NCBI GenBank assembly: GCA_004565275.1
Contig: SDOX01000094.1
Location: 1-64,000 of the forward strand
Source of the DNA: Nannochloropsis salina CCMP1776
Lineage: Eukaryota > Sar > Eustigmatophyceae > Eustigmatales > Monodopsidaceae
Reading direction: 5' to 3'
DNA length: 64,000 nucleotides
The notes beneath the pieces are model-generated. The model saw nothing but the letters and a program-made list of their open reading frames with translations. It ran no database searches and was not told the origin of the DNA. Shown in pieces: positions 24,163 to 64,000 of this stretch. Within the stretch, counting starts at the first letter, position 1; each line of letters begins with the position of its first letter. Both the position numbers and the translations under genes were made by a program.

Positions 24163-25637
24163 TTACTTGACCACCACGCCCAGCTCCTGCTGCCATTCAG
24201 AGGGCACGCTCAAGTACAGGGGAATCACGGTGCCAGACGGAACGTTCTTTCCAATTCGCATGATGATGGTGATCTTATACTTCTTGAGAAGCCTGGTCCC
24301 GTCGCTGGGGAGAGTCCACACCAGGGTGTCGCCCTCGTCGACGATCTCGTACGTGATCCTTACGGGGCAATAAAGGAAGATGGGAGAACAATCAGCTTGC
24401 GGATCGAGCAAAACCTGACGTGAAACAAGCACGCCTTTCCACAGTACACAACAAGACATGATGAGGGATGAGGAGTGAGGAACGATCAAGGTAGACAATA
24501 ACGCTTTCTCCCTGTCAGCATTATAGGAAGGCAGAGGACAAGCAATGAATGGATGGAGATTTGACTTACTTAGGCCTCCAGTGTTGGGAGCGATTTTGGA
24601 CCGGGCGAAAGAAATCCCGACGTCAGTGCCATCCTTATGATGCTTGCTGGTCTTGTTGCCCGCAGTAAGGGACTGGAAATTGAAGAAAGGATCAAGGCTG
24701 CACTGGAAGAAAAGGGGAAGCAAGAGTAGAAAGGAAGATGCCCGCGACATGGAAGCGAAATCATCAGTATTGCCACATAATCCGTCACATCAATGAACGA
24801 GTCCTTGTGGCTCGTCAAATCATGGAAATGCTACAGGGATTCAGAGTTGAAAACTCAATCAAGGACCTTCACCGATGCTATTCGCTCTCTTTCCTTCTTT
24901 CTTAGATTTTGGTCACTTACCGCAAATGCAATGTCGTCGGTCTCGAGTGCCCGCACAGCACGTTTACGTCCAGTCGGTTGGTCATCCAACACTACCAGAT
25001 CCGCAGTCACACGCACCATCCTGCCGGCCCGAGCGAACAGGTTATGGGCGCGGGCCTGGATGATAAAACGGATGGGCTCCTCTGGAGATCCAATATCTCC
25101 TATAGACTGAAATCCCCCGTCACGAAAAGCCATCGGACCAAGAATGCGCCGAGGCATGCTACCCGCAAGAAGCTGGTGAGTATAGTGACGGTTGTCCCAC
25201 GACAGAAATCGGCCAGGCTTGACGTCGATGATCGTTTCCTCTCCGGTCAAATCGTTTTTCAATTGCATGCGGCCATCCCCTTCCAGGTACACCAAGCCCA
25301 CCTGCTTGTCTGCCGAAGAACTGTCCTCGAATGTATCTTTGTGAGCGGCCACCATACCTTTCTGTCCTCTGGCCGGTGCAGTGAGCTGGGAAGGAAATAC
25401 TTCGGAGTTTTCAGGATGCAACACGGAAAGCAAGCGCTTGTACACCTTGCCAGGTAAATCGACCGTCTGTTTGAAACGATGCATCTCAGACGGAAGCTGC
25501 GCAAGGAGATTTTCGCGTGTAGCCTCGTCGATGAAGTTATCTTCAACTACAATCTTCGCATGGCTGAAAGAGGATGTCAAGCAGAGGACAGCGGTTGCGA
25601 TCGACAGCAAGTAGCGGGAGGAAACAAAAAGCGGCAT
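24163..25637 (-). pseudogene. Secreted 2-oxoglutarate/Fe(II) dioxygenase, copy 3, frameshifted
   Basis: Exon 1 (24,921-25,637) is intact and carries a 15-base in-frame insertion (five residues around 'DIGSPEEP') just before 'RFIIQARAHNLF'. Exon 2 (24,570-24,702) is 133 rather than 134 bases because one base of 'ccacgtg' is missing near 24,581; splicing at the same GTAAGT donor then reads exon 3 out of frame. The catalytic His-x-Asp and distal His lie in exon 1 and remain intact, so a truncated oxygenase lacking the normal C-terminal 65 residues could still be made. A sequencing error is an alternative. Confidence 0.65.
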
Positions 25638-39695: not shown

Positions 39696-40840
39696 ATGCG
39701 GTGTCCTCAATACTTCTTCGTGATCGTACTCCCACTTCTTTCAAACGCTTTGTCAGAAATTTCTCGACCTGCAATGGACAGTGGTGAAAGCAGAGCTAGA
39801 ATGTATCCTGAGAACGAGGGCACGAAAATCAGAAAGAATTTACCGTCACTGCTGCGATCAAAAACGGCCAATCCTACCTCAAAGTACATGCCAGTCCTCC
39901 CAGACTCTGGACTTCAAAAGATTCTTCCCCACCCCGTACTCATGACGGATGCGCCTACCACCGCTGTGCATACATCTGCACCCATTCGCACGATGCCCAC
40001 GCAGACACCTGCGCCTTCCGTGGTTCTTCACACCGCTGCCCCGGCAGCAGCTATAGCTACCTCTACCCCTACGCTGGCTGACCCCGTGACGATACTTCCC
40101 CACCCGTACCCATGACGGATGCGCCTACCACCGCTGTGCATACATCTGCACCCATTCGCACGATGCCCACGCAGACACCTGCGCCTTCCGTGGTTCTTCA
40201 CACCGCTGCCCCGGCAACAGCTATAGCTACCTCTACCCCTACGCTGGCTGACCCCGTGACGATACTTCCCCACCCCGTACTCATGACGGATGCGCCTACC
40301 ACCGCTGTGCATACATCTGCACCCATATTTATACCACCACGTAGGACAACGGTTCCTACAATTTTTCCGACGGAGACGAACTCCTCCGTTATATTCACGA
40401 ACGCACCTGTTACCAGCCCGACCCTGTTTCCTTGCTATGACGGCTTCAAGATCAAAATGAAGCAAAGACCTAAATACGTGTGCCCCGGGAAAAGATTCAC
40501 CATCACAATCGGCATCCGCAGCTCCGCAAACAATGTAGTCAATGATACCGCGCTGTTCATATACTTGCCGAATGAATTAGAAGTCCTCGGCTACAAAACG
40601 ACAGTGAAGTGGCCACGCGTGGTACCGAAGCTCGACGGAAGGAAGCTAGCTATAAGGCCTTTGAAATTCCGCAAGAAGGGTTTTTTCCGCTGCAGGATGA
40701 AGCTAAGAAGGCGATCCAATTCTACAACAGGACAGCAGATTCGCATGCCCGTGGTCTTTATGACACCAATTGCTGGTAATTACACATTGCACACGGTATT
40801 CGAGCTCAACGCTGGATCCCTCAAGGCAGGATGTATATAA
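39696..40840 (+). CDS. Secreted Pro/Thr-rich surface protein with 57-residue repeats (frame broken once)
   Basis: Starts with a signal peptide ('MRCPQYFFVIVLPLLSNALS'). It then has tandem 171-base repeats rich in Thr, Pro and Ala ('MTDAPTTAVHTSAPIRTMPT', 'QTPAPSVVLHTAAP', 'STPTLADPVTILPHPVL'), a mucin-like, probably O-glycosylated stalk. The C-terminal about 170 residues ('CYDGFKIKMKQRPKYVCPGK', 'FTITIGIRSSANNVVNDTAL', 'IYLPNELEVLGY') look like a beta-sandwich of the DUF11 kind. The frame from 39,696 ends at 40,115 and the rest is open from 40,112, because one C is missing in 'ccacccgtaccc' at about 40,100 compared with 'ccaccccgtactc' in the neighbouring repeats. It is either a frameshift or a base-calling error in a C run. 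Confidence 0.55.
39942..40325 (+). repeat. 171-bp coding tandem repeat, 2 full plus 1 partial unit
   Basis: Repeat phase marked by 'atgacggatgcg' at 39,942, 40,112 and 40,283 (spacings 170 and 171). The units are almost identical, including synonymous sites, which points to recent expansion or conversion. The third unit diverges after 'CATCTGCACCCAT'. Confidence 0.9.
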
Positions 40841-46203: not shown

Positions 46204-48308
46204 ATGACTCCCACATCTACCTCCACCCTTTTCCTCCTCCTCCTCCTCCCCGTCCTGCTTCATGCCCTCACGGCCACCAACACCGCCGCGTTCATCAGGT
46301 TGCACACCACGGGGGCCCTCCATGGCTTTCATAGGTACGTGCCTGCGTCTATCGGACGCCGATATGGGAGGGACAGAACACGAGGATACTTCCTAAGCCT
46401 CTCCTCTCGCATGGTCAGTATTCACCTCTCTCACCCCCCCCCCCCCTCTCACGTACTTCCTTCCACATTGCCTATTCGCAGCTGTCCCCTCGACCGCAGG
46501 TGCGGCCACAGAAGATATCTGGCCGCAGGGACCTCGGGAGGGGGGGGGAAGGCCAAAACGCCTCCGTCGAAGAAGGAAGAGAAAGGGAAAGAGGAGCCTA
46601 CCTGGGGGCGTGTGCAAGTCTTGGAGACGAAACCGGCGGCGGAAGGCCTGTACCACGTGTCGATCGATGCCGGGGACCTCCTTGCGTCGTACTCCACTCC
46701 GGGACAGGTGCGCAAGGAGGGAGGGCGGGAGGGAGGACGGGAGGGAGGACGGGAAGGAGGGTGGGAGGGAGGGCGGGAGACGAAGGGGAAGGAAATGAGG
46801 AAAAGGCGCGTGGCATGCACACAATATGGATGCATTCGATGACTCATTCACGGTGTGCATGTGCTGTTCTCTCTGCGTTCCGATTACCTTCAGTACGTGC
46901 AATTGAAGCCCCATGCGCCAGGGGCGAACCCAAGCTTTATGGCCATCGCCTCTCCCCCACCCGGCGCAAGCGGGAACGGGAGGGCGGAATTTCTGATCAA
47001 GAAGACGGAGGGGACAGCCTGGCTGTGCGAGGCGCGCGCTGGGGAGGTGGGGAGGGAGGGAGGGAAGGAGGGAAGGAGGGAGGGAGGGAAAGGGGTAATC
47101 CCGCCTTGATATGTGGAGGGCTATAGGGAGGGGGATTCAGGGAGCTTCAGAAGAGAGAAGGAGAGAGAAAGACGAGAAAGGGAGGAAGGTGCGGCGATAA
47201 GATGTGAGGTGACCTCTTCGCGTACGGCCCTGGCGATGTTCGCGCCATGTCGTTACATGTACCCTCCCTCCCTCCCTCCCTCCCTCCCTTCCTTCCTTCC
47301 TTCCTTCCTTCCTCGTTCCCAGGAGGTCGACATGACCCCTGCCATGGGAAGAGGCTACCAAGTGCAGAATTTCGATCAGGAGGGGATCAAACACGTCCTT
47401 TTGCTCGCAGCGGGGACTGGCATCGCCCCCATTCGGGCAGCCATTGAGAGTGACGTGCTGGGCTTGGACAAGGTGGGTGCGGCGGATACTAAACATAGGC
47501 TCATCCTGGTCGTTTCTCGCGTCGTGACGTCGGATGGCAGCGAGGAGTTTTTGTTTCGGTGGGGATGGGTCGCCCTGCTGCTCTTTCCCACCCACCCTCC
47601 CTTCCTTTCTCCCTTCCTCCCTTCCTGGATGGAAGATGGAATATGATCCGCAATGACGAGGTGGCAATTTGGAGAGTTTTCCTCCATCACTTTCCGTCGT
47701 TCGCTTCAATCCCCCTTTCTTCCCCTACCCTTGTCGTGTCCTCCCTCTGTCTTTCAGATGTCTCGCTACTCGCGTCTCTACTTCGGAGTCCGCTCGCCGG
47801 CCTACCTCCCGTACACAGAGAAATTTCCTGAGTGGGAGGCGAGGGGGGTCAAGATCATTCCCTGCTTTTCCCGGACGCCGGTGCCTATGAACTCGCCGGG
47901 CTACTGGGGTAAGCCCTTGCTGACATGCCAATTTGAAATTTTGAATTGGAAATGCTGGAACAGATCTTTACATCTCTGTAACATTCGCTGCCCCTCTGTC
48001 CCTAAGCTTGCAGTTTGGGACAAATTGTATTCCAAATGACGACGAATCTGTCCTGTCTGTCGCCGTCTCTTTCAATCTCACTGGGCGCCTCCTTTCCCTC
48101 CTTCCCTTCCTCCAACCCTCCCTCCCGCCCTTTCTTCCTCTCTCTTTCTTTCCTAGGCTACGTGCAACAAGGACTTGCAGGGGACGAAATTCGAAGCCCC
48201 GAGAAGACAGCCGCCCTTCTGTGTGGAATGAAGGACATGACGAACCTCTCCTCCCACGTGCTGAAGGAGAAAGGGGTGAGCCCGGAGAGGATCCTCTTTA
48301 ATTTTTAA
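46204..48308 (+). CDS. Plastid FNR-like FAD/NAD(P)-binding oxidoreductase
   Basis: Exons: 46,204-46,413; an acceptor between 46,482 and 46,529 (not resolved) to 46,707; 46,894-47,046; 47,323-47,472; 47,758-47,908; 48,157-48,308. It begins with a signal peptide ('LFLLLLLPVLLHALTATNTA') followed by Phe, a plastid leader. Core motifs of the ferredoxin-NADP reductase superfamily: 'WGRVQVLETKPAAEGLY', 'YVQLKP', 'FMAIASPP' (FAD site), 'VLLLAAGTGIAPIRAAIES' (nucleotide-binding Gly loop), 'RLYFGVRSPAYLPYTEKFPE' and 'GMKDM' with a C-terminal 'SPERILFNF'. It resembles the plant chloroplast FAD/NAD(P) oxidoreductase type (At1g15140-like) rather than true FNR. The electron partner is unknown. Introns 2 and 3 start with GGGAGG arrays, and intron 3 ends in CCCTCC/CCTTCC arrays. 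Confidence 0.8.
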
Positions 48309-49025
48309 ACTATGGGGGGACACGGGAAGGTCTTGCCGGGGGGGGGGAGAAGAATGTATGTTGAGACCAGCGGAAAAGGAGGGGCGAGTCCATAAATGGT
48401 GTGGGGTGAGAGAAAAATCGTACGGTCAGGCCCTATGCCATCCAATCCAGTCAAGGCCATTCCCCTCCCTTCCAAAAGAAGAAGCAAGTGGCGTGGCGCG
48501 TCTGCGCGTCCTTTCCATGGCTTGGGAGTCTTCCGCGACCTCCCTCGGCAAAGACATACCGTGGCCTCTGTCCTCCTTTTCTCTCAGTGATTCATTCATT
48601 TATTTTACTTCTGCGACGACTCTCCCTTTCTCATTTTCTGTACCAAGCCCCTTCCCAGGCACCCTTTCCTTCATCAACCCTCCTTGCTCTCTTCAATCGA
48701 CCCCATGCAGGTTGCCCAAGACCAACTTCTTTGTGTTTTGTGTTCGGCCGAGGAGACAAAGCATGGCCAAAGAGCAACCACGTAAGCCTCGAACGACCTC
48801 CGGGCACGCAAGCTCACTGGGAACCCAGCTTTAGTTTGCCTCCCCTTCCTTTCCCCACTCGTTTCCCCCAACCTCTTTGCTGCCGCCGTCGCCTCCTCCC
48901 TCACGACTTCCTCGAGTTGCCATTGCTAATGCTCCGTTCAATGTTTCGCATGCTCCGCCTTCTTTCATGCACGTGCTTCGCGCACTGCTCCCACTCCTTC
49001 CCCACCCCTCCTTCCCTTCCCCCCT
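48309..49025. other. Convergent spacer
   Basis: Pyrimidine-rich spacer between two convergent genes; short Pro/Ser-rich frames only. Confidence 0.4.
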
Positions 49026-51797
49026 CTATAGGTCAATCAATTCCGGGTAGTCTTGGATCAGATCTCGCTTGCTCAACACGTCGCTCTCGTCTTGCGGGGT
49101 CCAGAGCACCTCTGTGGCCAGCACATTCTCCCCATCGTCTGTCATCGCATCCGCCGCCAGCGTCTGGGGGAAGGTGCACGGGGAGAGAGGGGGACAGAGA
49201 AGGGCAAGAAGGATTCCATTCCTTGTGAGGGGATACAGAGCTCTCAAGTATCATCCTTAGCTCAAGCCTAGATTGACCTCCTCTTGAGAGAATTCTCCAC
49301 ACGTCGTCGCCCCCGTCTTTACCCCTGTCTTTTTTCTTTTCCTCCTCCTTCCCCTCCCTCCCTCCCTCTTCGTCACCCTTCCCCCGCCCCTACCCACCTG
49401 AAGTGCCTCTCGGAGCTTGGCCGCGCTGTTCAAGGTGCTCCCCATCTAGAACGGCAGAGAGAGGAGGAAGAAGGAAAGGAGGAAGGGAGATTGAAAACGG
49501 CACAACAGACGAAGAAAGCTGCCGGAGCATGCGTCGAGTCCCCAGGGGAGATCAACAGGCAGGGGAAAGCCGGGGCCAAGAGTGATATTTGACGGGAGGG
49601 AGGGAGGGAGGGAGGGAGGNNNNNNNNNNNNNNNNNNNNNNNNNNNNNNNNNNNNNNNNNNNNNNNNNNNNNNNNNNNNNNNNNNNNNNNNNNNNNNNNN
49701 NNNNNNNNNNNNNNNNNNNNNNNNNNNNNNNNNNNNNNNNNNNNNNNNNNNNNNNNNNNNNNNNNNNNNNNNNNNNNNNNNNNNNNNNNNNNNNNNNNNN
49801 NNNNNNNNNNNNNNNNNNNNNNNNNNNNNNNNNNNNNNNNNNNNNNNNNNNNNNNNNNNNNNNNNNNNNNNNNNNNNNNNNNNNNNNNNNNNNNNNNNNN
49901 NNNNNNNNNNNNNNNNNNNNNNNNNNNNNNNNNNNNNNNNNNNNNNNNNNNNNNNNNNNNNNNNNNNNNNNNNNNNNNNNNNNNNNNNNNNNNNNNNNNN
50001 NNNNNNNNNNNNNNNNNNNNNNNNNNNNNNNNNNNNNNNNNNNNNNNNNNNNNNNNNNNNNNNNNNNNNNNNNNNNNNNNNNNNNNNNNNNNNNNNNNNN
50101 NNNNNNNNNNNNNNNNNNNNNNNNNNNNNNNNNNNNNNNNNNNNNNNNNNNNNNNNNNNNNNNNNNNNNNNNNNNNNNNNNNNNNNNNNNNNNNNNNNNN
50201 NNNNNNNNNNNNNNNNNNNNNNNNNNNNNNNNNNNNNNNNNNNNNNNNNNNNNNNNNNNNNNNNNNNNNNNNNNNNNNNNNNNNNNNNNTGCCCCAGGAT
50301 CGATCCTTTGGCGGAGCGATCAGCAACCTGCAGACCGACCTGAGCGAACGACGGGAAGAGGGACGGGAGGAGGGAGGGGAAGGGGGAGGAACCACGATGA
50401 AGAGGGCGCCACGACGCGTCAGACGACCAAGGAAAGACAAGAACGAGACCGTCCCCCTCAAGTGCACCATCCCTAGACAAGGCCCCGATCAGGCCTCCCT
50501 CCCTCGGCCCCTCCCTCGGCCCCTCCCTCCCTTCCCGCCAACCTGAATCTTAAGCACTGTCACGCCAGCCCCGAGGGAGGATGGGGTATCGTCCACGTCA
50601 TCCCACTGGCTCCCGCCGATCGAGTTCTTGATGGCATTGAAGGCTAGGTCAGAGGAGGGGGACGGGAAGGACAACGGTGAGGACAAGGTAGGAGGGAAGG
50701 AGGGAAGAAGGGAGGAAAGGGGAATGGAGGGGGAAGGAGGGAAGGGAGGAGAACCTACCAACGTATGCCAAGCCCCCCAGGACGAGCACGTCAATGGGCG
50801 AGATGCCCGTCCGGTAGGAGACCATCCCGCCGCCCTGGTTGATGGAATGCGACCGGAGGGACGCGGAGGGGTGAGCACTCTGTTCAGCCTGTCAACGCCG
50901 CCCATCGTCAACTTCCCCTCCCTCCTCTTGTCCCCTTCCCTTTAACCCCTGCTCGCTAAGCTCCACTCCTCCCTCTCTTTCCCCTATACGTACGAATCCA
51001 AACGGAGAGAAGGGGGAGAAGCCATAGCCGTACCCCCCGTACGGCAGAACGGGGACGGCCATAGGCACCCGTTCCACGTACCCCCGGGTGGCGGGACCGG
51101 GGGAGTAGGAGCGGGAGGGAGGTGCGGAATATCTGCAAAGGATAAGGAAGAGCACGAAAGGAAAGGAAAAAACACGGGCCATTCAATAGAGGCGCCTGAC
51201 CGGTTCTATTCTGTCATGGCCCCACTGTTTCTCGCCCTGTTCCTTTCCCCTTCCCCCTAATACGCCCTGCATTTCCAACCTTTTTCTTACCTTCGGGTCT
51301 GCGACGGCGCGGATCGGAACCCGCTTCCGCCCACACGTCCACCGCTCCTTTGAGCAGCATCGGCGGCATTGTAAGCACCCAGAGGGGACAAAGCCAACAG
51401 GGCAAGGCACACGTTTCGAGCCAGGGAAGGAAGCCAGGCCAGGGCGGATGTGTCTGGTAGTGGCATGGAAGAAATATGCTCAGAGACAGCACAACCTACG
51501 ATGGGAAATACTTGCGGAAAAGATCAAATTAGGCCCACCTTTCTTCTTGGGCGCCAACGCTTTGCCATCTCCTTTCTTGACGGCGGTCAGGGCAGTAGGA
51601 AAATGGCTTTGCCCGTATACACGTTGCCTTGCAATCCTAGAAATGGCTCCAGGCTGCGAGGAGGAGAGCGCGGGCAGAACCGCCGGAGGAAGAAAGAGAG
51701 AGGAGGAGGACGGCTGCACTTGAAGGGAAGGAGGGACGAAAGCCATTACTACGTCCCCACAGGCCGCCAAACCGAGTAGCAGGGCTACTGCGCGCAT
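49026..51797 (-). CDS. DUF1517 plastid protein (interrupted by assembly gap)
   Basis: Exons: 51,539-51,797; 51,291-51,453; 50,994-51,132; 50,759-50,834; 50,543-50,643; 50,339 into the gap; then 49,398-49,445 and 49,026-49,163. All resolvable phases close. It starts with 'MRAVALLLGLAACGDVVMAF', a signal peptide ending Ala-Phe, and a second hydrophobic stretch in exon 2 ('LARNVCLALLALSPLGAYNA') that suggests thylakoid transfer or a membrane anchor. DUF1517 hallmarks: 'GGRVGGSGFRSAP', 'YGGYGYGFSPFSPFGF', 'DVLVLGGLAYV', 'GAGVTVLKIQVGLQVADRS', 'NSAAKLREALQ' and the highly typical 'EVLWTPQDESDVLSKRDLI' then 'DYPELIDL'. The middle exons lie in the N run. Family members are plant/algal plastid proteins of unknown biochemical role. 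Confidence 0.8.
49620..50289. other. Assembly gap (670 N)
   Basis: Run of N from 49,620 to 50,289, entered on the left directly from a GGGAGG array, inside the DUF1517 gene. It hides at least one exon. Confidence 1.
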
Positions 51798-53085
51798 ACT
51801 GCTTTATTTAATAGTGTATTCGAAAATTCGTGACGATTGTCTGTCTTTTAGGTGTGTCATGGCGTTGCAGTAGCGGTAAGTTGATGATAGCAGCCTTCGC
51901 TCCTCGCAACACTCCTTCCGACTCGTTTCAGTAACTACATAAACCACAAACCATGGCAGCGCGACCCGGCACGCCAGGTCGGAAGCATGAGAGAAAATGT
52001 CAATTACGTAACTACAACCAATATGCCCTATGAACACTTCTTCTCTTCGGAAAAGCGGGCATGCGGCGCGTGACTCAGCTTGCTATCTACAGGCTGTCGA
52101 GGTGGGATCCTATTCCTTCGCTACGCCTTCCGACCAAAAAAAGGAACAAAATCGCTTCCACCGGGCCCCAGTCCTGACGACATGAATGCTAAGCATACGA
52201 CAAGATGTTCGCTCTCAACATTTACCCTGTGACTATCCCTCTTTCGTGTTAAGGGAGACCTCTGACCTGGAGAGGGTCAGCGTCAACTATGTCGACCTCC
52301 CCCCCCCCATACACGCCACTGGTTTCCTGACGCGAAGGTTAATACACAAGACTTGTACACAAGCCAGTAGAGTAAGTGGATTTGAATTTCAATCAACAAT
52401 TGATGAAATGGTGAAAAGTTCTTTGAAGAGAGTTTATCGATGTGTTCATTGGAATAATAAGGGGAAAAAAGGAAACGGCAGTTCAGGGACGTCTGCTCTC
52501 GGAGAGCCCTGAGACTTCTGCCGCCCACCGCCCCTCTTTTCCTTTCCTTCTATGCACCATTTACTCAGCCCCACAACAAGTATCCACGATAAACTTCCTT
52601 CATGGACGTGCTAATAAATTGTTTCAGACAAGAGTAGTAAGTTGTCATGGTGGATGGAGTACCTGTGGTCTCCCATTAATCACGAAAGCAAGCGGAACCC
52701 AGAATTTACGACCATGCCCGCTCCCCGCCGCGGCTGATTTCCATATACCCCCCCGAGGTCGAAAGAGGTTTTATCCATGGCTTTAGATCATATTTTTTTC
52801 CATGAAAGCAAAGGATAAATGCCATATGGACCAAATTCTTGTAATTGGTTGAGTTGCACATAACTTTTGTGTATTCAGAACAGCAAATGTCGCATTTAGA
52901 CCAAGTATTATCTTTTACCCCCCGGGTCGAAGCGTCGTCGTTGCTTCGTGGCATATGGCTCACTCAAATAATTGGTGACTTTAATCAAAATTCCACGGTT
53001 TTGGAACCCGCATTTGAAAGAACAGCAGGGTGTTTATGCGAAGGCATTCGTAGGAAGATTTACTTCCGGGCCTCGACTACAGCTA
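51798..53085. other. Intergenic region with dispersed repeat copy B
   Basis: Between divergent genes. 52,448-52,740 matches 43,447-43,740. A long run of C (52,301-52,309) is present. A frame open from 52,845 joins the next gene in frame and may be a 5' UTR or an N-terminal extension. Confidence 0.4.
52448..52740 (+). repeat. Diverged dispersed repeat, copy B
   Basis: Collinear with 43,447-43,740 in four short blocks, with moderate divergence between them. Same orientation as copy A. Confidence 0.5.
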
Positions 53086-53709
53086 TGGAACCAATAGAGG
53101 AAAGATTACAGGCATGCCCGTTCGACGAAAGAGACCTGCGATTTCTACGAGAAGTCGCATTTGGAGGGCATTCGCCTCGATCAGATGTAGATGGCCACCT
53201 TTTTAGCGCGTGGGAAGTAGACTCGAGGCCCTCCCAGCAAACTATCTTGCACCCGCAACCCAAGCGAAACATACAGGGAGAGTGCCGCTCCTCAATTACA
53301 GAAGATTCAGGGGTATTGCTTGATCATGAGCAGGACGACTTCTTCATGAATGACGTAAATAGCCAAGGGGACGACTCATTTCTTGCCTACTTGGAGGAAG
53401 CAGCGTCGCATCCGCTGCTATCGCCTTCCCCGTGTGAAGGCGTTGCAGCGGCGGAGGATGTAAATATGCCTGATAACATTTGTAACTCGAATCTAAACTT
53501 AGGTCATTCGGTTGACCAGGTTGTCAATGAAATTGAGGATACGCATCCCTTAACGTATGCCCTCGAGGGCATGGAAGAAGAGCCCTACAATCCTTGCGTC
53601 TGGCAGCAGAACCAGCGATATTACTATCCACAGCAGCAAGATCACCATCACCACCACGATCAACACCATCACCACCGACGAGAACAACAACAACAACAAC
53701 AACAACAGC

Positions 53710-53761
<52 letters not shown>

Positions 53762-53778
53762 CCATCACCACCGACGAG

Positions 53779-53843
<65 letters not shown>

Positions 53844-53956
53844 CCACAACAACCACAACAAGAACGACAACAACAACAAGAACGACAACAACAACAACAA
53901 CAAGAACAACAACAAGAACAACAACAACAACAACAACAACTACAACAACAAGAACG

Positions 53957-53990
<34 letters not shown>

Positions 53991-55172
53991 GAACAACATC
54001 AACGCATGCAGTACCGGCAGGTAACCCAGACGCATCGTACCTCCCCTACCGCACCCCTTAATGTCGCATCATCGGCAGGGTCCGCAGCATTACAGTCCAA
54101 TGCCATCCTATCTCAGGGATACCACGGAGACAACCACGGGCCTCCGCCTTCTGTCTCTTCCCCTGCGCCAAGCCTGTTCAGGCCATGGTCTTTCCCCACA
54201 CCAAACACGGCGTCCTCTCTCTCCATTCCCTTGGCTGCTTCTCCGCGCTTGACGCCTCGTATTTTGCCTTCCGTTGTTCCTCTCTCATCGCCGGTTGCAC
54301 CTCCCCCACACTCGCCCTCCGGCCTCCCTCCTAACCTCCGGACCCTTTCCAAACCCTCCTGCCCCTTCTTTCCCGTCCTCATCCGGCTCCTGATCATCGA
54401 TGAAGGCCTTGTCTCTCTTCGAAACACGGTTGCCGGCCTTCAGGTCGCCCTGGCAGCGGCTGCCACCGTGGCCCGGAGATCGATTTCGTGTGCTCCCCAG
54501 ACCTCGCACGCAGGCAATGTCTCCTCGATATGCCTGCCTCAGGAAAGACCGCTTCAATTTGTGGTCGATGCGGCACGAGAGGCCTTGATGGGGATCGAAC
54601 AGCTGGCTCGTCACGACCCTGACGTGGTGATCGTATCGGCAAGCTTGGAGGGTCCAGGAGCCAAGGAGCTGGCGAGGTTGATAAAGAAGACGTGGGGGTA
54701 CAAGGCAGCAATCATTTTGACAGGGAAGGAGGAGGATGGGCGGGAGGAGGAGAAGATGGAAGTGGCTGAATGGAGGAAGAGAGATGACAGTGGAAGGGAA
54801 GATTTGTGGGAGGGAAAGCTCGGAGAAGAGGAGGGAAAAGAAGAAGCCAGGGCAGACCCCAGGTCGGTGGCGGCCAATGTCCCGGGACCAAAAGATCGGG
54901 AGGAAGAGCGGGTGGGCCAGGAGAAAGCGAAAGAAGGCGAGGGAGGCATCTTCGACGGGTGGATACTGCGGCCTTTCTCAGGCTCTTCCCTTCTTGACGT
55001 CGTCTTGAAGGCGCTCGCGCCCCGCTGGAGGGAGATTATCTCCCCTCCGCCCTCGGTCTGTTCCTACTTCCCTCCTGCCTCGGAAGCTGCCGCATCGCCT
55101 CTCCATCTCCTATCCCCACACACATCGACCCTTCATTCCCGTACCAGCGCGGATCGACGGCGAGCCTGGTGA
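53086..55172 (+). CDS. Poly-Gln protein with a degenerate receiver (pseudo-REC) domain
   Basis: A single frame of 695 residues from the ATG at 53,086 ('MEPIEERLQACPFDERDLRF'); the frame is open from 52,845, so the start is not certain. The middle has His-rich and Gln tracts (53,640-54,005) interrupted by a repeated 'HHHHRREQQ', then a Pro/Ser linker. Residues about 450-660 carry a response-regulator-like fold: 'VLIRLLIIDEG' (acidic pair at beta-1), 'DAAREALMGIEQLARHDPDV' 'VIVSASLEGPGAKELARLIK', 'AAIILTG' and 'DGWILRPFSGSSLLDVVLKA'. The phosphoacceptor Asp is Ser, and the conserved Lys of the KPF motif is Arg, so phosphorelay is unlikely. An acidic/basic insertion of about 80 residues precedes the last strand. 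It could be a transcriptional co-regulator or clock-type pseudo-response regulator; this is inference. No DNA-binding domain seen. Confidence 0.65.
53640..54005 (+). repeat. CAA/CAG trinucleotide (poly-Gln) tract with CAC segments
   Basis: Mostly CAA codons with some CAG, CAC, GAA and CGA. The block 'caccatcaccaccgacgagaacaa' occurs twice (about 53,665 and 53,760), so the tract itself has been duplicated. Open in all three plus frames (Gln, Asn, Thr). Confidence 0.95.
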
Positions 55173-56869
55173 TAAAGCCGCGTGTCGGCCTCATACCGTC
55201 CACCGCCTCTCCTGACTCGACCATCCATCCCCCTCAAGAAGAGAGCAACGGTGTAGCGGGTCCAACAACTTCCCTGATACCTTCCTCTCCTTTCTCGTCG
55301 ATCCTCAAGAAGCCCCCCTGCCCTCCTTTCCCTCCCTCCCTCCCTCCACCTATACCTCGCCCTCGACAAACCCTCCAACCCCTGACTCTTGCCCCCAACC
55401 TACTTTGCGCCCCATCCACCGTCCTGTTGCTGATCGAGAAGTGGTAGATGCTGCCCAAACAACACCTGAAGCGTTTCAAGAAAGGAATGTGTTTTTGTCG
55501 GGTAAGTGATAATATCATATAAAGAAAAAGTCGAAGGGGAAGAGTTTCTATGACTTTGCAGCCATGTTCCGCTTGTGTCTGTCCTCTCGTGCAAGCATAC
55601 TGTTCCACTGACAGCATGCAGGCCACTCTCCGCGTTGTTCCTCTTATTGCTCGTCTTGTTTCTCTTATCATTCCTCCATCACTTCATTCCTAGACAGGCC
55701 ACAATAGGAGGGCCCCAACAAAGAGGTTAAGAGCAGGAACTAACGAAGGATGTCAAATGACGAAAGGCGATGGGATAGAGTAAAAGAAATTAGGGGAATA
55801 TAAAGGCACCAGCGACTCACGAAAGAGCAATTTAGAGCCGAACGAACGTTTTATTTTAATACCCACCTGCCTATTCCCTTGAGCAAAAGCATATGGGGAG
55901 GAAGTCCAGGTAAAGTGAAAGAGGATGAAGGGAGTGACAGAGCAAGTGGAACGCTCAAACAAAAGACATAATGATGACACGAGTGTATCTACTACTCAAA
56001 AATTCTTCAAGCGCGAGTTAAGCGGGCGTCGTCACCAGAAATGGAAAGGCAAGAGCTGGCTCTGATGCTCGATCATTGGTATTCTTTGGCTTGCTTTGTA
56101 GAAATAAGACATAGACAAGTTGATCATGCTACACACGTGAAGGATTTTGTCCTTCTGACACTTATTTCACAGCTAAATTGCGCGACATAAGTCCTTGGAA
56201 GTATTGCGGACTAGCTATTCCTTACATCAACCTCCTCTTCAAACAACACCGCAAGTACACCACGCAAATACACTTTTTTGAAAGGCAACCTCATGACGAA
56301 GATCCCATTTTTATTAACAAACGCTTTTTAAAATCCACCTTGAGGAACGTGCTTTGGCTTTGTTTGGCTTTTTCCCCAAGCTATTTTCCCGCGATGACGT
56401 CACTGTTCCCGGTAAGGGCGCCCAGGCCGTTGAAGCCTTCTGAAAATTTGAACCAGAGGACCTTTCTTTACCCACACAAAGATCGTGGCACAAGCAGCTG
56501 AGGCAGCCGATCAATTGCTCGTATTGTATGAAGTCTTTGAGATGATATCGCCATGACGGAGCTTGGACTGGAATTATGTGAGGCTTTTCTCACCCGAATA
56601 TGCGAGTCCTCCTCCCGTCCCCTTGTAGGTATACTAGTCGCAGAGCGTGCTTGCCTACCTTACTAGGAGGGGCCCGGGTAATCCAAATATTCATGAGTCA
56701 GCAAAGACTTTCAAAATGAATGTCTGTGCTATATCATGAAATAAATTCTCCCGCGGATATTCGTTATCGAGTCAACAGCCTTTTTATCTTCCTTTTCTTG
56801 ACCTAAAGTCTACCAGGTCGGGTCTACTTGAGCAGATCGATTCAACCACGACCCCGCGCGACTCCAGCT
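55173..56869. other. Unassigned region upstream of the Reeler-reductase gene
   Basis: 55,200-55,690 is Pro/Ser-rich and could contain 3' exons of the preceding gene (a frame ends 'AFQERNVFLSG' before a GTAAGT donor at about 55,501). A TGACGTCA octamer lies near 56,395. No other gene recognised. Confidence 0.4.
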
Positions 56870-59800
56870 ATGGCTTTTCTTTCGAGAACATTTTGTCACT
56901 TGCCTGTCCTAATTTTTCTGCTTTCGGCATCGGTGCGGGGGTACCCACATTACCTATTGAATCCTGAGGGCTGCGTGGACAAAAAGCTGGAGGTAAGGGC
57001 TTGGAGGACTAGTGTACTGCTTCTGGTCGACCTCTCTCGGGACGGAATGTACTTTTGTAGGTGACATGCTTGTTGCCGCTGTCCTATTCACCATTCCTAT
57101 GAAATGGAGGCAGGGGCTTTTCAAGGACGTATGCCGGAATAAATAAGTATGAAAAGAGACATGATTCATTTTTGAGCAACGTCAGGCCTGCCCCTTCCTC
57201 AGCACCATGATTGAGTCGCACAAGACAGTAGGAGTAGTAAGACAGCAGCATTACGAGCCAAATTATTCCTACTGCTTGATTTCCCCCCCACCAGGTTGGC
57301 TTCAAAATGATGGCCTACCCCGCTATATTGGACAAGGTCAAGGGCACGCCCGTCAAGGTAAGCTCAGGGAAACGGCACGGGAAAAGGGCGGGAAGAATGA
57401 TCGTCGAGGAAGAAGATTAGGAGTCGCGTATGGCTGTGGGGATGCGCGGGAGCGGAGGAATAGGGTAAGGGTTATGAGAGGGTCTGCGGGAAATGTTCAC
57501 GTCCTGGTGCACGCACAGGTGTATCGCCAAGGGCAAGCTCTGACGAACGGCTCGGAGTACAGGAGCGGAGAAGTCCTGACTGTGAGGGTGGAGGGACGAG
57601 CAGGTAGGGAGGGAGGGAGGGGGGGAGGGAGGGAGGGAGAAAGGACGGTGGGGGGTCTCGGAGGCCTTGGATGTGGGATGAGAGAGACTGAGTGAACCGT
57701 GGAGACAGCCAAGGAGGGGAGTGCCTCGGGAGAGTCAGACGGAGGCAAGGGAGGGATTGGATGACAACGATAGGGGAGAGGGAGCGCGCGGGCAGGGGGG
57801 CAGGGAGAGAGGGCGACAAACTGGGCACCGTGGACGAATCCCTCCCTCTCCGACATGCCCTCCCTCCTTTCCGTCCTCCCCCTGCCCCTCCCTCCTTCCC
57901 ATCCTCCCTCTGCCCCTCCCTCTTTCTCCCCCTTGGTCTGTCAGGCCAGTACTGTCTCGAGGCCCGAGGGAACGCCGTGTTCTCGGACGGAGCCTGCGAC
58001 GGGAAACGAACCACCCAAGAGCAAGTCTTGGCGCTTCCCATGGGGGACCCCAGCGTGCTCCAACCCGTTCGTCTCGTCGCGGGCATCGCTTCCAACGAAT
58101 TCGCCCCCGTGGTCATCACGAAGCCCTTCCTCTTGCGAGGTAGGGGAGGAAGGAGGGCCAGAGGGAGGGAGGGAGGCCGTGCGAAGGGCGTGGTTGGGCA
58201 GGGAGGGGACTGGCTGCCCGGGAGGGAGGGAGAGAAAGAGGCGAGGGCGGCATCTCCTGACTTTTAAAAAAAAAACCATTCCCGCTTTATTTCCTATCTC
58301 GGACCTCCCTCTACATCCCTACCTTACTTACCTCAACTCTTTTTGCCCCCTCCCTCCACCTCCCTCCATCTCCGATAGCCCCCGGTGCCATGCCTGAGGG
58401 GGGCCACCCTCCTGCCGACACAGAAGAGGACGAGGAGGAGGACCAGGTCCGTACCCTTAAAATGTCCGCACTGCCTCCCTTGTCGCGCTCCTCACGCAGC
58501 AGTGGACCCTCTCCTCCTTCCTTCCCTCCCCCCCCTCCTCAGGCGGCCCCTCCGACAATCCTGGGCCCCAGCCTACCCCGGCTGGCTCGCTCGCTCGTGC
58601 TCGACAAGAGCACTGGCGTGGAAATGGGTTGGACGGTGGGCGACGCGGGGGACTATGTCGACATCCAGGTGCGAGGCCGCTCTTCCCTCCCTCCTTCCCT
58701 CCCTCGTTTCTCCTGGCGCGCTCCTTCCTTTCCTCGCGTGTACTTTCGTTTCTTTTTCCCTCCCTGGGCTTGCTCGTGCTTTCACTGCTCATTTCCTCTT
58801 TGATCCAAGCCCGTGACGTCCCCTCAGCCACCCCTCGTTCCCACCCACCCTCCCTCCCTCCCTCCCTCCCTCCCTCCCTCCCTCCCAGGTGGCGGGCCGG
58901 GGCCAGACCTGGGTGGCCGTGGGAGTCATCCAAGGCGCGCCGACCATGGTCTCTCGGCCCTTTCACCAGGTCCTTCTCTATCCGGACGCCAAACGGTAAA
59001 TCCTCCCTCCCTCCCTCCTTCCCTCCTTCCCTCCTTCCCTCCTTCCCTCCCTCCCTTCCTTCCTTCCTTCCTTCCTTCCTTCCTTCCTGGCGGTAAACTC
59101 CCTCCTAGGACCGCCGCCCCCGCCCATCGAGTGCTTCGGTACCTTCTTTTTCTTCCCGATCCATCCCTTTTCAATGCAGGAGCGGCCTCCTTGGTCGAGC
59201 TGCAAGCCCAACGGGCTTCCGGGGTCCTTCCTCTTCCTCTCGACGACAAGGTCCCTCCCTCCCTCCCTTCTTTCCTTCCTCTTGGCTTTTCCCATCGTTG
59301 CCCTCCCTGACCTCTGGCTCGACCTAATACTAGTTCTGTGCTCTTTCCTCTCTGAGAACCCTCCTTGACTCACGCATTCTCTTTCGTCCCCCCTCCTTGC
59401 GCATCGACCACCCCTCCCCCTCGCTCCCTCCCTCCCTCCCTCCCTCCTTCCTCCCCTTCCCAGGGCATCGAGGTTCTCCTCACCCAGTCTACCGCCGACT
59501 ATACCCTCCTCCGCTACCGGCACTACACTCGGGCCGGCAATCGACGGAGGCTCAAGGAGGAAGGGAAGGAGGGTCCACACTTGGACGGAGCGCGAAGAGG
59601 CTTGCAGCTCGGTGGGCCTCCCTCCCTCCCTCCCTCCCTCCCTCGCTCCTTCCTTCCCTCCCTCCCTCCTTCCTTCCTTCCCTTTCCTGACCCTCCCACG
59701 GCTCCACGGGACCTGAAATGCGCATGTTCTTGCTGCACGCTCACAGCTCCCCCTTTTCCTCCCTCCCTTTCCCTCCCTCCCTCCCTCCCTCCCTCCCTCC

Positions 59801-61707
59801 CTCCCTCCTAACCCCTCGGCGCAGATACTCTTTTGAAGCTAGAGGGGCGAAATCAATTGCTGTACGCCCATGGAGCTGGACCGTATCCTACCATGCATGA
59901 CGCTGCCGAGGCCTTTTCCATCACATGGAAAGCAGGGGCCTCGGAGCAAGAGGTAGGGAGGGAGGGAGGGAGGGAGGGATGGAGGGGGCTGTTGTGGTGC
60001 ACGACATTGAGGGGGTTGTGGAGGGAGAAGGGAGGAGGAGGTTTTGATTACAAAGAGACTTATGCCTTGCGTCGCCATGGCTGATTCCTGGCACACCATC
60101 CTCCGCCGCTCGGAACCCGCCCTCCCCCCCGCCCTCCCCCACGCCCTCCCTTCCCCCCAGTCGCCCGGCCAAGGCAGCGAGCACCTGAGCTCCTACCACG
60201 GCCCCATCCCTCCCTCCCTCGGCCTGGGTCTCCTCCTCCTCCTCCTCCCCTTCCTCGCCATAGGCTGCGTTTGGCAGCGCCCTTCCGTCCGTCGGTCTTC
60301 CCTCGGTCGTTTCCTCCTCCACCATCGCCTCTTCCACCAACCGTCCTCCCCCCCGTCCTCCCTCGCCTCGTCCCTAGGCAGCACCCGCTGGGGGGCCTGC
60401 CTTCTAGAACTTTCCATTTTTGGCGGTCCTGCTGGGTCTGGGGGTGCACTGGGCCCAGGAGGCGACGGCGCAGGGAAAAGATTCTCAGCGGACGGTGGCG
60501 ATTGCTTCGGGCAGAGTCGCCATGACAGTGCTTATGCTCGTGACCTTGCCAGTGGCAAGGACGAGTTTGTGGCTGTGGATCACGGGTAGGGAGGGAGAGA
60601 GGGAGGGAGGGAGGGAGGGAGGGGTAGGGCGGAGGAGGAAGGCTTGCTTTGCGATGGGTTTCCAATCCCTTCCTCCTTGCTTTCCTCCCTCCCTCCCTCC
60701 CTCCCTCCCTCCAGCCCCCTCCCTCGCCTCGTGCTGGACGGTCCCTACGGGGCCCTCAGCCTCCAGGCGTCGGACTACGCGCATGTCCTGCTCGTGGGGG
60801 GGGCATAGGGATCACGCCCCTCACGACCACCTTGCGGGCCTTCCAATTTGCGGTGAGGGAAGGGGAGGGAGGGACGGAGGGAGGGAGGGACGGAGGGACG
60901 GAGGGAAGGAGGGTCGGTGGAAGGCCCCTCTTGGACGGCGTACTCGTGTTAAAGCCTTCTGACCTCCTTCCCTCTCTCCTTCCTTCCCTCCTACCCTCCC
61001 TCCTACCCTCCCTCCTACCCTCCCTCCCTCAGTACCACTCTCCCCAGGGCCTTCCCCTCCTTCGCAGCATCACCCTCGTGTGGACCGTCCGAAGTGCCGC
61101 CCAAGTCTCTTGGTTCCAGCCCTTCCTCGCCGGCCTCCTTCGAGATGCCGCCACCTCCCCCTCCTCCCCTTCCTCCTCCGATGCCGTCACCACCCCCTCC
61201 GATGCGTCTCCATCCCCCGGCGCGGCCGCTAGGGTGGGCGGGGAGGAGGGGAGGGACAGGGACGCAGACCGTCCTCCTTCCCGCCCTGGTTTTCCTTTCT
61301 TTCTTCGCCTTTATATCACGCAGAAGGCAAGCAAGAGCTCACAGGGGAATGGAGGGAGGGAGGCAAGGCAGGAAGGAGGGAGGGAGGGAGGGAGGGAGGA
61401 CGAGGAGGAGACGGTCGCAAGCGCAGACCTGCCTTCGTTGGCTGGCGAATGGATGGGTCCAGGGATCTCACCCACGGAAGGTCTGCCCTTTCTCCCTCCC
61501 TTCCATGCCGGTCGCGCCCCCCTTGCGCGTATCGTCGAGGAATGGTGCACCGGGGAGGGGGAGGAGGAGGGCGGGAGGGAGGGCGCGAGGGAGGAGAGGC
61601 GTGGGGTAGTGGTATGTGGACCAAAAAGTATGATGCGGGAGGTTCGAGACGTGGTGTTGGCGAGGGAGGGGGAAGTAGATTTGCACGAGGAGGTGTTCCA
61701 CTGGTGA
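56870..61707 (+). CDS. Reeler-like/DOMON/ferric-reductase fusion oxidoreductase
   Basis: At least 14 exons. Fitted ones: 56,870-56,992; 57,295-57,357; 57,519-57,603; 57,945-58,139; 58,379-58,446; 58,543-58,668; 58,889-58,995; 59,180-59,250; 59,464-59,611; 59,824-59,952; then about 60,160-60,585 and 60,715-61,707. It starts with a signal peptide ('LPVLIFLLSASVRG'). The Reeler-like part has 'YRSGEVLTVRVEG' and 'YCLEARGNAVFSDGAC'. A DOMON-like domain follows ('VEMGWTVGDAGDYVDIQ', 'TWVAVGVIQGAPTM', 'LLYAHGAGPYPTMHDAAEAF'), then helices ('LGLGLLLLLLPFLAIGC', 'AVLLGLGVHW', 'GRVAMTVLMLVTLPVARTSL'). The C-terminus is an NADPH-oxidase type nucleotide-binding domain ('LVLDGPYGALSL', 'GGGIGITPLTTTL', 'VVVCGPKSMMREVRDVV'). 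The heme-binding helices and the FAD domain expected between 60,585 and 60,715 are missing. The phase between 58,995 and 59,180 does not close, and a G run at about 60,795 breaks the frame by one base. Confidence 0.65.
60586..60714 (+). repeat. Intron with GGGAGG start and CCCTCC end at the missing reductase core
   Basis: A 129-base intron: GTAGGGAGGGAGAGAGGG... at the donor and ...CCCTCCCTCCCTCCAG at the acceptor. The two ends are complementary. It stands where about 200 residues of conserved reductase sequence are expected. Confidence 0.8.
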
Positions 61708-61937: not shown

Positions 61938-64000
61938 TCACGCCTGTGCTGCGAAGCGTTTCAACGCGGCTTCCGCCATCAACGTTCGTTTGTGCGTTTG
62001 GACGCAATCGGTGGAGCAATAGACATACTCCAGCCGACTGAAAAAGACGTGGATCCGTTTCCCGCACGCGTCGCACAAGAGCTTCTGACTGTCCCCTTCC
62101 TCCACCCCTTCCTCCCCTTCCCTCTCCTTGTCTTCTCCTTCCTCCTTCCCTTCCTCCTTCCCTTCCTGTTTCGACTCTTTCTTTCGACCCTTCGCGCGCT
62201 TTTTCTTCTCTTTCGCCTTCTCCTTTTTCCTCTTCTCCCCTTCCTCTGTCAGCCCCTCCGGCACCCCCGACCTCTCCCAGTCCCTCCCCCCCTCCTTCTC
62301 TTCCTCTCTACCTCGCACCCGTCGAAAAGCGTCGCGGGTCAGCTTATTCTTGCAGAGGAAATAGGCAGGGCGATCCCGGTGATCCAGAGTAGAGGGGTCG
62401 CAACCTCGCTCCAGCAGGGCCTCGACCCATTCCTCTTTCCCTCCTTCCGCCGCGATGTGGAGCAGGGTGTAGCCCGCCTCGTTGCGCGCGGTGAAGGTGG
62501 AGGGCGGGAGGGAGGGAGGGAGGGAGGAAGGGGAAGCCGTCGAAACGAGGGTGGCTACCAGGGGAGACCAGTCAGGGTCGGGAGGGGGAAGTGGAACGGA
62601 AGGAGGAAGGGAGGGAGGGAGGGAAGGAGAGAGGGAGGAAGGCGCCATGCTATCTGGAGTAACGCTGTGGGGACGAGGGTTGCAAGGAGGAAGGGAGGGA
62701 GGAAGGGAGGGAAGCAAGGGAGGGGGAGGGGAGAAGCGAACGGTGGCAAGCCGGCTGTGGATGGCCTGAGTTTCGCTGAAAGAGGGAGGCTTCGGCATGA
62801 AGGGGACGCGACGAAGGCGGGGATCATCGCGGCGGAGGAGGGGGGCCTGGGGAAAGGGAAGAAGAGGGTGAGGGGGGGAGACGACGGGACGGAGGGAGGG
62901 AGGGAGGAAGAGGCGGAGGGGGGGGGGGATGTTTTACCTCCTCCCCTAGGAAGACGCCTCGCATTGCTTTTGGGAGGGAAAGGAATATAAGCTCACAGCC
63001 TGCGAGAATGACGGTCCATTCTTTCAAAATGGCGCGAACGTCTTCGACCGTTTTTTGTTCCCCGTAACGGCGGAGCTGCGAGCCCATTGACTGCGCCCGG
63101 CGTCCTGAGGGAAAAGGAGAGAGTCAGAGAAAGGGGGACAGAAGGGAGGGAGGGAGATAGGAAGGGAGGGAAAGAGGGAGAGAAAAAGTAAAGCAATCAA
63201 GGAGGGATGGAAGCATTCGAGGGCCAGAAGTGGAAATGCTTCTTGAGCGCCTATGCGAGACAAGAGGCAAAAGAGAGAGGAAAAGACTGCCAGGGCCACA
63301 TTTGGAAAGAGGATGGAAGAGGGGCACAGGGAACGGGGGAGGGAGGGAGGGAGGGAGGAGGGAGGGAGGGAGAGAGGGAGGGAGGGAGGGAGGGAGGAAC
63401 CTTGATTGTCATAAGCACTCTGGCTACCACCCGCTTTCGCCCTGACTGTATAACGGCTAAAGGACTTATGGGCCAGGACCTGATGCTCCTCAAAGATGGC
63501 GCCCGCGAATTTTCCTTGTCAACACATGGGAGTGGGAAGGAGGGAAGGCGGGAGGGGGGGAGGAGTGAGGGAGGAAGGGAGGACGATGAAGGTGAGAGGG
63601 AAAAAAAGAATGTGCGAGGGAGAAAGGAGAGGGGCCTACCCGAGCGCAACATCAAAACCGCCCATCGACGAGCCTTTGGCCGTCCGGGCTCGCCGCTGCC
63701 CTCCGTTTTCCCCCGGCTTTCTCGAAGCGCCGTTAGAAGCTCGAAGTTGCTGGCACGCTTGGGATCGGGCGACAACAGGACCGACCACAACGTGACACAG
63801 AACGGGGCCTAAGGAAGCGGAAGAGGAGGAGCGGGATGAAGGGTAGGAGGGTGGGATAGGTTGGGCTGGAAGAGAGAAGGAGGGGGAGGAGCCCACCTGT
63901 CCCTGTCGCAGGGTCAACTCGGCGCTCTCTTTTTGAACCTCTGGACCGTCCGTATCTTCTTCGTCACCCTCCCCTTCCTTGTCGCCCTCGTCTCTCCCCT
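61938..64000 (-). CDS. ANKZF1: ANKZF1/VMS1, ribosome-quality-control peptidyl-tRNA endonuclease (5' end outside window)
   Basis: Exons: about 63,889 to beyond 64,000; 63,640-63,809; 63,401-63,514; 62,938-63,104; 61,938-62,846 (stop). The VLRF1 release domain is spread over the middle exons: '[11 protein letters not shown]', '[20 protein letters not shown]', '[17 protein letters not shown]' with the GSQ catalytic-Gln motif, then '[20 protein letters not shown]' and '[18 protein letters not shown]'. Downstream come 'DPRLRRVPF' and '[10 protein letters not shown]', a Pro/Ser-rich insert from CCCTCC arrays, an ankyrin pair ('[20 protein letters not shown]', '[20 protein letters not shown]'), a Lys/Glu coiled coil and a C-terminal Cys finger ('[12 protein letters not shown]', '[12 protein letters not shown]'). 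In yeast and animals Vms1/ANKZF1 frees nascent chains from stalled 60S subunits. The family match is very clear. Confidence 0.92.

Follow-up and report, generated by a model that had tools for sequence, protein, structure and literature searches.

Many introns in the first 64,000 nucleotides (nt) of one Nannochloropsis salina CCMP1776 contig (C97:1-64000, here called the window) begin with arrays of GGGA units or end with arrays of CCCT units. An earlier note on this DNA had read these complementary ends either as a splicing aid, in which the intron would fold with its splice sites together, or as simple repeats that had spread and were tolerated by the splicing machinery. We found that introns in this genome are polar, with G runs towards their starts and C runs towards their ends, also where they hold no array. 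In addition, G arrays are rare near acceptors, and array-bearing starts and ends meet in the same intron about as often as chance predicts. The arrays are probably microsatellites born of slippage and filtered by splicing signals for place and orientation, rather than a special folding device.

Polarity of G and C along introns

The assembly comprises 26.5 Mb in 103 contigs, of which ~1.3% was read letter by letter and the remainder was covered by word counts and family searches. One of its light-harvesting proteins closely matches chain VCPI-2 of the structure PDB 8zo9 (E=2.9e-136), and we take the genome to be that of a eustigmatophyte from the Nannochloropsis/Microchloropsis group. We built one set of introns without reliance on the arrays. 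These homology-defined introns are gaps between adjacent Pfam matches of one domain, sought genome-wide in the light-harvesting (LHC), TCP1, kinase and kinesin families. The gaps were picked by hand, leaving out, e.g., an LHC pair (contig C6), kinesin gaps (C61 and C25), a TCP1 gap (C15) and one AMP-binding gap (C35). Of 59 gaps tried (50 + 9), 53 had a solution in a search that admitted GT-AG borders only; a strict filter (score of at least 0, residue difference of about 2 or less) was passed by 36 and failed by 17. Five of the 36 could be read through in frame, at least two of which look coding by eye, and were removed, leaving 31.

Among these 31 introns, 17 have GGG within their first 40 nt and four within their last 40 nt (Fisher p=0.001), while 15 have CCC in the former stretch and 24 in the latter (p=0.034); before the removal (n=36 introns), the first/last counts were 21/6 for GGG and 16/28 for CCC. 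GGGAGGG or CCCTCCC is present in eleven of these introns; in the remaining 20, which are array-free, GGG occurred 22 times at starts and 3 times at ends, and CCC 13 and 41 times, respectively. Among the 18 introns of at least 150 nt, the share of G fell from 38% in the first 50 nt to 24% in the middle and 11% at the end; 30 of the 31 donors have G at +5. Since the bias is seen in array-free introns too, the polarity is general to introns here, with the arrays as its extreme form. The array words themselves are too few in the 31 introns for firm tests, with first versus last counts of 3 vs 0 for GGGAGG (p=0.24), 5 vs 0 for GGAGGG (p=0.053), 2 vs 9 for CCTCCC (p=0.043) and 2 vs 8 for CCCTCC (p=0.081).

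Larger samples came from gene models of the window and 200 kb of contig C2, so that most of the introns discussed below are predictions. An array-neutral model (256 introns) placed a small fixed exon penalty on array positions of either strand, and scored donors at -3 to -1 and +3 and acceptors at -3 and +1. An informed model (209 introns) took its splice weights from the 36 homology-defined introns, including the five later removed. Both models miss or misplace some homology-supported introns: of the four window introns bridged by Pfam matches, three were exact in the informed model, two in a rerun with cleaned splice weights and one in the neutral model. Several gene-finder variants were discarded, i.e., those without an intron length cost, with a coding model trained on open reading frames, with zero-cost array positions (many arrays stayed in exons), and with a broad mask and strong penalty (R-rich exons were shredded).

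We tallied predicted introns of at least 80 nt without long N runs, writing G5 and C5 for a G or C array in the first 50 nt, and G3 and C3 for one in the last 50 nt. The neutral set (n=224) gave G5 54, C5 37, G3 16 and C3 70, and the informed set (n=198) G5 54, C5 36, G3 8 and C3 83; the informed acceptor weights disfavour G near the acceptor, making the neutral figures fairer for G3. The cleaned rerun left the picture unchanged (n=203 introns of at least 80 nt; G5 53, C5 36, G3 8, C3 83). In the 151 introns of at least 150 nt in each set, G arrays were 4.2-fold (neutral) and 4.9-fold (informed) denser in the first 50 nt than in mid-intron, and C arrays were 4.8-fold and 4.9-fold denser in the last 50 nt (medians of gene-block bootstraps for G, bootstrap over genes for C). 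C arrays were themselves denser at starts than in mid-intron, at 9.9 vs 4.2 per kb (neutral) and 10.3 vs 5.1 per kb (informed). This excess suggests a tendency of the models to set borders next to arrays, which may account for some of the enrichment of G arrays at starts.

Genome-wide word counts are independent of gene models, although overlapping matches inside one array are counted repeatedly. CCCTCCC-N0-10-CAGG occurred 2034 times against 887 for its reversed control (2.3x), while GGGAGGG-N0-10-CAGG showed no enrichment (3326 vs 3212). On the donor side, CAGGTR-N0-10-GGGAGGG occurred 596 times vs 293 in the control (2.0x), and CAGGTR-N0-10-CCCTCCC 193 times vs 88 (2.2x). The excess over control was 303 for G and 105 for C at donors, and 1147 for C and 114 for G at acceptors. 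The tally proposed in the earlier note thus covered predicted introns of the window plus 200 kb, the 31 homology-defined introns and words of the whole genome; a bias of position and orientation is present, and C arrays are also common at intron starts. A DNA-level explanation, in which arrays flank exons regardless of the transcript, predicts equal C5 and G3; with 36 vs 8 (informed) and 37 vs 16 (neutral), it was rejected.

C outnumbers G ahead of predicted start codons, and G is common downstream of predicted stops, a pattern that truncated gene models would also give. In the L086 kinase gene (G000:C33:54500-55300), two introns were read by eye and kept outside all counts. There the features stand apart: the first intron starts GTAGGGAGGGAGGGAGGG and has merely a mild C/T tract at its end, and the second has a C array near its end.

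Nature and origin of the arrays

The tracts have a period of 4, with a match of 0.784 at lag 4 compared to 0.48-0.52 at lags 1-3 (205 tracts), and the period-4 rows of Tandem Repeats Finder agree. The arrays are thus (GGGA)n/(CCCT)n microsatellites with a unit of four bases. Within the window, GGGAGGGAGGG occurs 140 times against 0.15 expected from dinucleotide shuffles, in every case before 6.8 kb or after 46.7 kb. Array words are 5-8x denser in predicted introns than in predicted intergenic DNA; the informed model gives 5.6 and 9.7 per kb in the former and 1.1 and 1.4 per kb in the latter. Array density varies between regions, and these averages are uncorrected for region. The arrays are not confined to introns, as they lie in predicted exons and in an open exon of the VMS1 gene, where CCCT arrays in the linker between the VLRF1 and ankyrin domains translate as SLPP repeats.

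Short introns and many simple repeats are also features of the related genome of N. oceanica, for which 4.00% simple repeats, 4.71% low-complexity sequence, 53.8% GC and a mean intron of 230 bp were reported (PMC3499364). The arrays described here are period-4 repeats; for those of N. oceanica, the portions of that report available to us mention no bias of orientation or towards intron ends. A search of the open-licence literature on Nannochloropsis repeats, introns and splicing returned nothing on these arrays, from which we do not claim that they are absent from print.

Some of the introns have inverted arrays at their ends, and terminal inverted repeats were reported in 72 of 177 assessable families of introners, i.e., mobile intron-forming elements (PMC9860276). 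The introns could accordingly be copies of such an element. With the arrays masked, however, they share almost no sequence. Among 244 introns, a sample of the genome, there were eight non-self matches at E<1e-3, six of which came from one triplicated gene, and the two others spanned 72 nt at 86% and 60 nt at 73%. With no shared intron families in this sample, introner identity was rejected, and we regard it as very improbable.

The earlier note's alternative of simple repeats that spread and were tolerated by splicing is supported by the period-4 tracts, the scant shared intron sequence and the arrays in an open exon. On the explanation we favour, slippage would create GGGA/CCCT arrays on either strand, in GC-rich, gene-rich regions. 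Near an acceptor, a CCCT array would survive as a pyrimidine tract, while a GGGA array would destroy the tract and be lost, which may be why CCCT is nearly the sole orientation there. Near a donor, both orientations would be viable; GGGA would be the commoner because intron starts are already G-rich, probably via G-run splicing enhancers and a tolerance of GTRGGG donors. Two separate linear preferences would then leave complementary ends as a by-product.

Other repeats were seen in the window. A three-exon predicted gene is present in three minus-strand copies (8957-10122, 20094-21270 and 24163-25355), the matching introns of which are 92-99.6% identical. Positions 39920-40326 hold a 170-bp tandem repeat (2.4 copies, 97% matches), and positions 53683-54003 hold ~107 AAC copies, a poly-asparagine stretch in one prediction. 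On the minus strand at 3286-7355 lies an NBR1-like gene with ZZ zinc fingers and an NBR1-type Ig-like match below the cut-off. Its predicted exons hold GGGA arrays, which either would translate as EGGR repeats or are missed introns.

Pairing and G-run signals at the intron ends

Complementary ends raise the possibility that both arrays were co-selected for their pairing, which would loop out the intron and draw its splice sites together. Precedent comes from fish introns, in which complementary repeats of AC and of GT lie close to the two splice sites and can pair (Lin et al. 2016, as described in PMC7404189 and PMC9024468). The introns described here resemble them in having complementary simple repeats at both ends (25 of 198 informed introns; 6 of 22 in a hand-built list of window introns). 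RNAfold joined the ends of each of the five introns that the earlier note had given as examples, with 41-51 pairs between the first and last 70 nt, and the mean end-to-end duplex energy was -59.7 kcal/mol in the 25 introns with both arrays vs -17.7 in array-free introns. Pairing of the ends is thus physically feasible, yet as the cause of the pattern it finds little support, as detailed below.

First, G5 and C3 co-occurred at chance levels in every set tested. Both were present in 25 of the 198 informed introns, against 22.6 expected overall and 25.0 by permutation within genes (P=0.58), and in 18 neutral introns, against 16.9 overall and 18.1 within genes. Two other exon-array penalties gave 26 vs 25.5 and 23 vs 23.1 (expected from margins), the cleaned splice weights gave 25 vs 25.4 within genes, and two of the 31 homology-defined introns had a G start and a C end, with 1.8 expected. 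Second, ends swapped between introns paired as well as an intron's own ends (mean rank 0.498, 177 predicted introns), and the GGG count showed no correlation with the CCC count in either predicted set (rho 0.016 and -0.011). Third, the mirror polarity of a C start and a G end would pair equally well, yet it is rare, with two cases in each predicted set (informed, n=198; neutral, n=224). The proposal that end pairing aids splicing gains little from such figures. In addition, poorly folding introns with C arrays at both ends exist in the very gene that supplied four of the five examples, and the quadruplex option of RNAfold was energetically lower in four of the five. Compared to the fish introns, the two repeats here meet no more often than chance predicts, and the one next to the acceptor doubles as a pyrimidine tract; judged by sequence alone, the weak tract of the fish type was not found. 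Given these results, general co-selection of the two arrays for pairing seems quite unlikely.

Several observations nevertheless weigh against our explanation by independent preferences. In the 31 homology-defined introns, the GGG count at the start correlated with the CCC count at the end (rho 0.37, p=0.042), an association that fell to rho 0.29 (p=0.12) once mid-intron GC was corrected for; between the CCC counts of the two ends, the corresponding value was -0.17. Array sizes correlated weakly in introns of at least 160 nt with both arrays (rho 0.38, p=0.044, n=29 in the informed set; rho 0.41, p=0.056, n=22 in the neutral set). Own ends ranked slightly above swapped ends in homology-defined introns (mean rank 0.405, n=28), and the margin-corrected duplex energy of own pairs leaned towards pairing (P=0.068, n=177 predicted introns). 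The odds ratio of 1.28 for G5 and C3 in the informed set, with a hand-derived 95% range of about 0.7-2.4, would accommodate a modest link. Apart from pairing, direct abutment of arrays to donors was not special in whole-genome counts (AGGTRGGGAGGG 424 vs 381 in the control, AGGTNCCCTCCC 37 vs 44), and 33-38% of array words fell in predicted exons, some of which are surely missed introns.

The correlations of GGG with CCC and of array sizes leave room for a pairing minority: amid a background of linear signals, a few introns may have recruited G-rich starts and C-rich ends, including GGGA/CCCT arrays, as an end-pairing splicing aid. We consider this improbable; if true, this lineage would have arrived independently at an equivalent of the fish AC/GT introns.

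Alternatively, donor-side G arrays could be actively maintained because they aid donor recognition, either as G-run enhancers or as RNA G-quadruplexes, with the C arrays being ordinary pyrimidine tracts. This explanation accords with the density of G arrays at intron starts and with the excess of GGG that persists at the starts of array-free introns, and G runs are reported splicing enhancers (PMC2481429, PMC1831480). Among 208 informed introns, putative sense-strand G-quadruplex motifs were predicted within the first 70 nt in 39 and within the last 70 nt in six, and antisense motifs in 28 (first 70 nt) and 54 (last 70 nt). A review describes G-quadruplexes as enriched at both splice sites (PMC9198270); the motifs predicted here likewise lie on the sense strand near donors, but unlike in that description few lie near acceptors. 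Against this explanation, the enrichment of words near donors was similar for G and C arrays (2.0x and 2.2x), and C arrays are likewise denser at starts than in mid-intron, where border placement may explain part of the effect. Nor are the donors of G-start introns weaker: they score higher, not lower, and the idea that G arrays compensate for weak donors or tracts was rejected. The pyrimidine fraction of G-start introns compared to others (0.79 vs 0.77 informed, 0.67 vs 0.66 neutral) likewise suggests no weak tract. That neither donors nor tracts of these introns are weaker speaks against a special class rescued by arrays, and it counts against pairing as well. A retention of G arrays for donor recognition of this kind appears unlikely to be the main explanation.

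A close parallel is with human introns, where G-rich and C-rich intronic splicing enhancers were described, and where a G/C stem-loop was possible, tested and found unneeded (Murray et al. 2008, PMC2481429). In both cases G runs and C runs appear as linear intron signals, and the arrangement of GGG after the donor and CCC before the acceptor was found in our 31 homology-defined introns, also in the 20 that are array-free. The human enhancers described there are single motifs upstream of weak pyrimidine tracts, whereas here tetranucleotide arrays stand at opposite ends and the tracts are not weaker; motifs that offset weak sites were not found in these introns. As for the nonconventional introns of euglenids (PMC4770533), the ends can likewise be joined by pairing, but the borders here are GT-AG, in a search that allowed these alone and solved 53 of 59 gaps, with +5 G in 30 of 31 donors.

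Example introns, the VMS1 gene and the meaning of the arrays

The earlier note's observation of arrays is real, but it was stated too broadly. Each of its five examples is a GT-AG intron, the first 50 nt of which contain GGGAGG and the last 50 nt CCTCCC. The informed model and the cleaned rerun, with splice weights from homology-defined introns located elsewhere in the genome, reproduced these borders to the base; the array-neutral model recovered all five donors but two of the acceptors. One example lies in an NAD(P)-binding oxidoreductase gene (NAD_binding_1, E=4e-9), and four lie in a second gene that is ferric-reductase/NADPH-oxidase-like, with a below-cut-off NAD_binding_6 match near its end. 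The supposed generality among plus-strand introns fails in this second gene, in which five further introns carry CCTCCC in the first 50 nt (those starting at 58447, in single copy, and at 58669, 58996, 59251 and 59612). Because an intron with a G start and a C end reads alike on either strand, strand polarity cannot be demonstrated from introns of this kind alone.

The hand list of 22 introns across 46.7-63.9 kb was built from the informed models and was not blind. It omits 49164-49397 and 54021-54181, and three borders were changed by hand (46810 to 46708, 60794 to 60853 and 63639 to 63400). It holds G5 in 8, C5 in 9, G3 in 1 and C3 in 14 introns; G5 and C3 occur together in 6 (5.1 expected from margins), as do C5 and C3. 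In the same part of the window, an assembly gap of N (49620-50289) starts right after a GGGA array.

On the minus strand, the identification of VMS1 holds, with bVLRF1, Ank and VATC domains; joining the exons merges two partial VLRF1 matches (2.5e-12 and 5.8e-4) into one (profile 9-142, E=7e-42). The claim that this gene shares the polarity on its coding strand was wrong, as on that strand both of its Pfam-bridged introns carry CCTCCC within their first 50 nt and lack GGGAGG there. The features of these genes are collected in Table 1.

Table 1. Introns and one exon of the oxidoreductase, ferric-reductase/NADPH-oxidase-like and VMS1 genes, in window coordinates
Feature	Position	Strand	Basis
Oxidoreductase intron, G array at start, no C array at end	46708..46893	+	Donor picked by hand from the earlier note's start; model 46810-46893
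Example intron, G start and C end	47047..47322	+	Gene models, word scan
Intron without G start, CCTCCC near acceptor	47473..47757	+	Bridged by NAD_binding_1 match
Intron without G start, CCTCCC near acceptor	47909..48156	+	Bridged by NAD_binding_1 match
Example intron, G start and C end, ferric-reductase/NADPH-oxidase-like gene	57604..57944	+	Gene model, word scan
Example intron, G start and C end	58140..58378	+	Gene model, word scan
Intron with one CCTCCC in each of first and last 50 nt, without GGGAGG	58447..58542	+	Gene model, word scan
Counterexample, C arrays at both ends	58669..58888	+	Gene model, word scan
Counterexample, C array at start, none scored in last 50 nt	58996..59108	+	Gene model, word scan
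Counterexample, C arrays at both ends	59251..59463	+	Gene model, word scan
Counterexample, C arrays at both ends	59612..59824	+	Gene model, word scan
Example intron, G start and C end	59953..60160	+	Gene model, word scan
Example intron, G start and C end	60586..60714	+	Gene model, word scan
Additional intron, G start and C end	60853..61032	+	Donor picked by hand; model 60794-61032
VMS1 open exon: end of VLRF1, Ank, VATC	61938..62846	-	Domain matches
VMS1 intron, C-rich at both coding-strand ends	62847..62937	-	Bridged by bVLRF1 match
VMS1 intron, long CCCT array right after donor, C/T-rich before acceptor	63105..63400	-	Bridged by bVLRF1 match

The arrays have a practical consequence for the annotation of algal genomes: where they lie in exons or at intron borders, they mislead gene finders, including those used here. 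The introns also carry a warning: complementary intron ends can arise from two independent linear preferences, and RNA structure is not to be inferred from them. If the arrays indeed arise by slippage, as we infer, a strand-symmetric mutation meets the strand-asymmetric selection imposed by splicing, and the place and orientation of these repeats would map what splicing tolerates.

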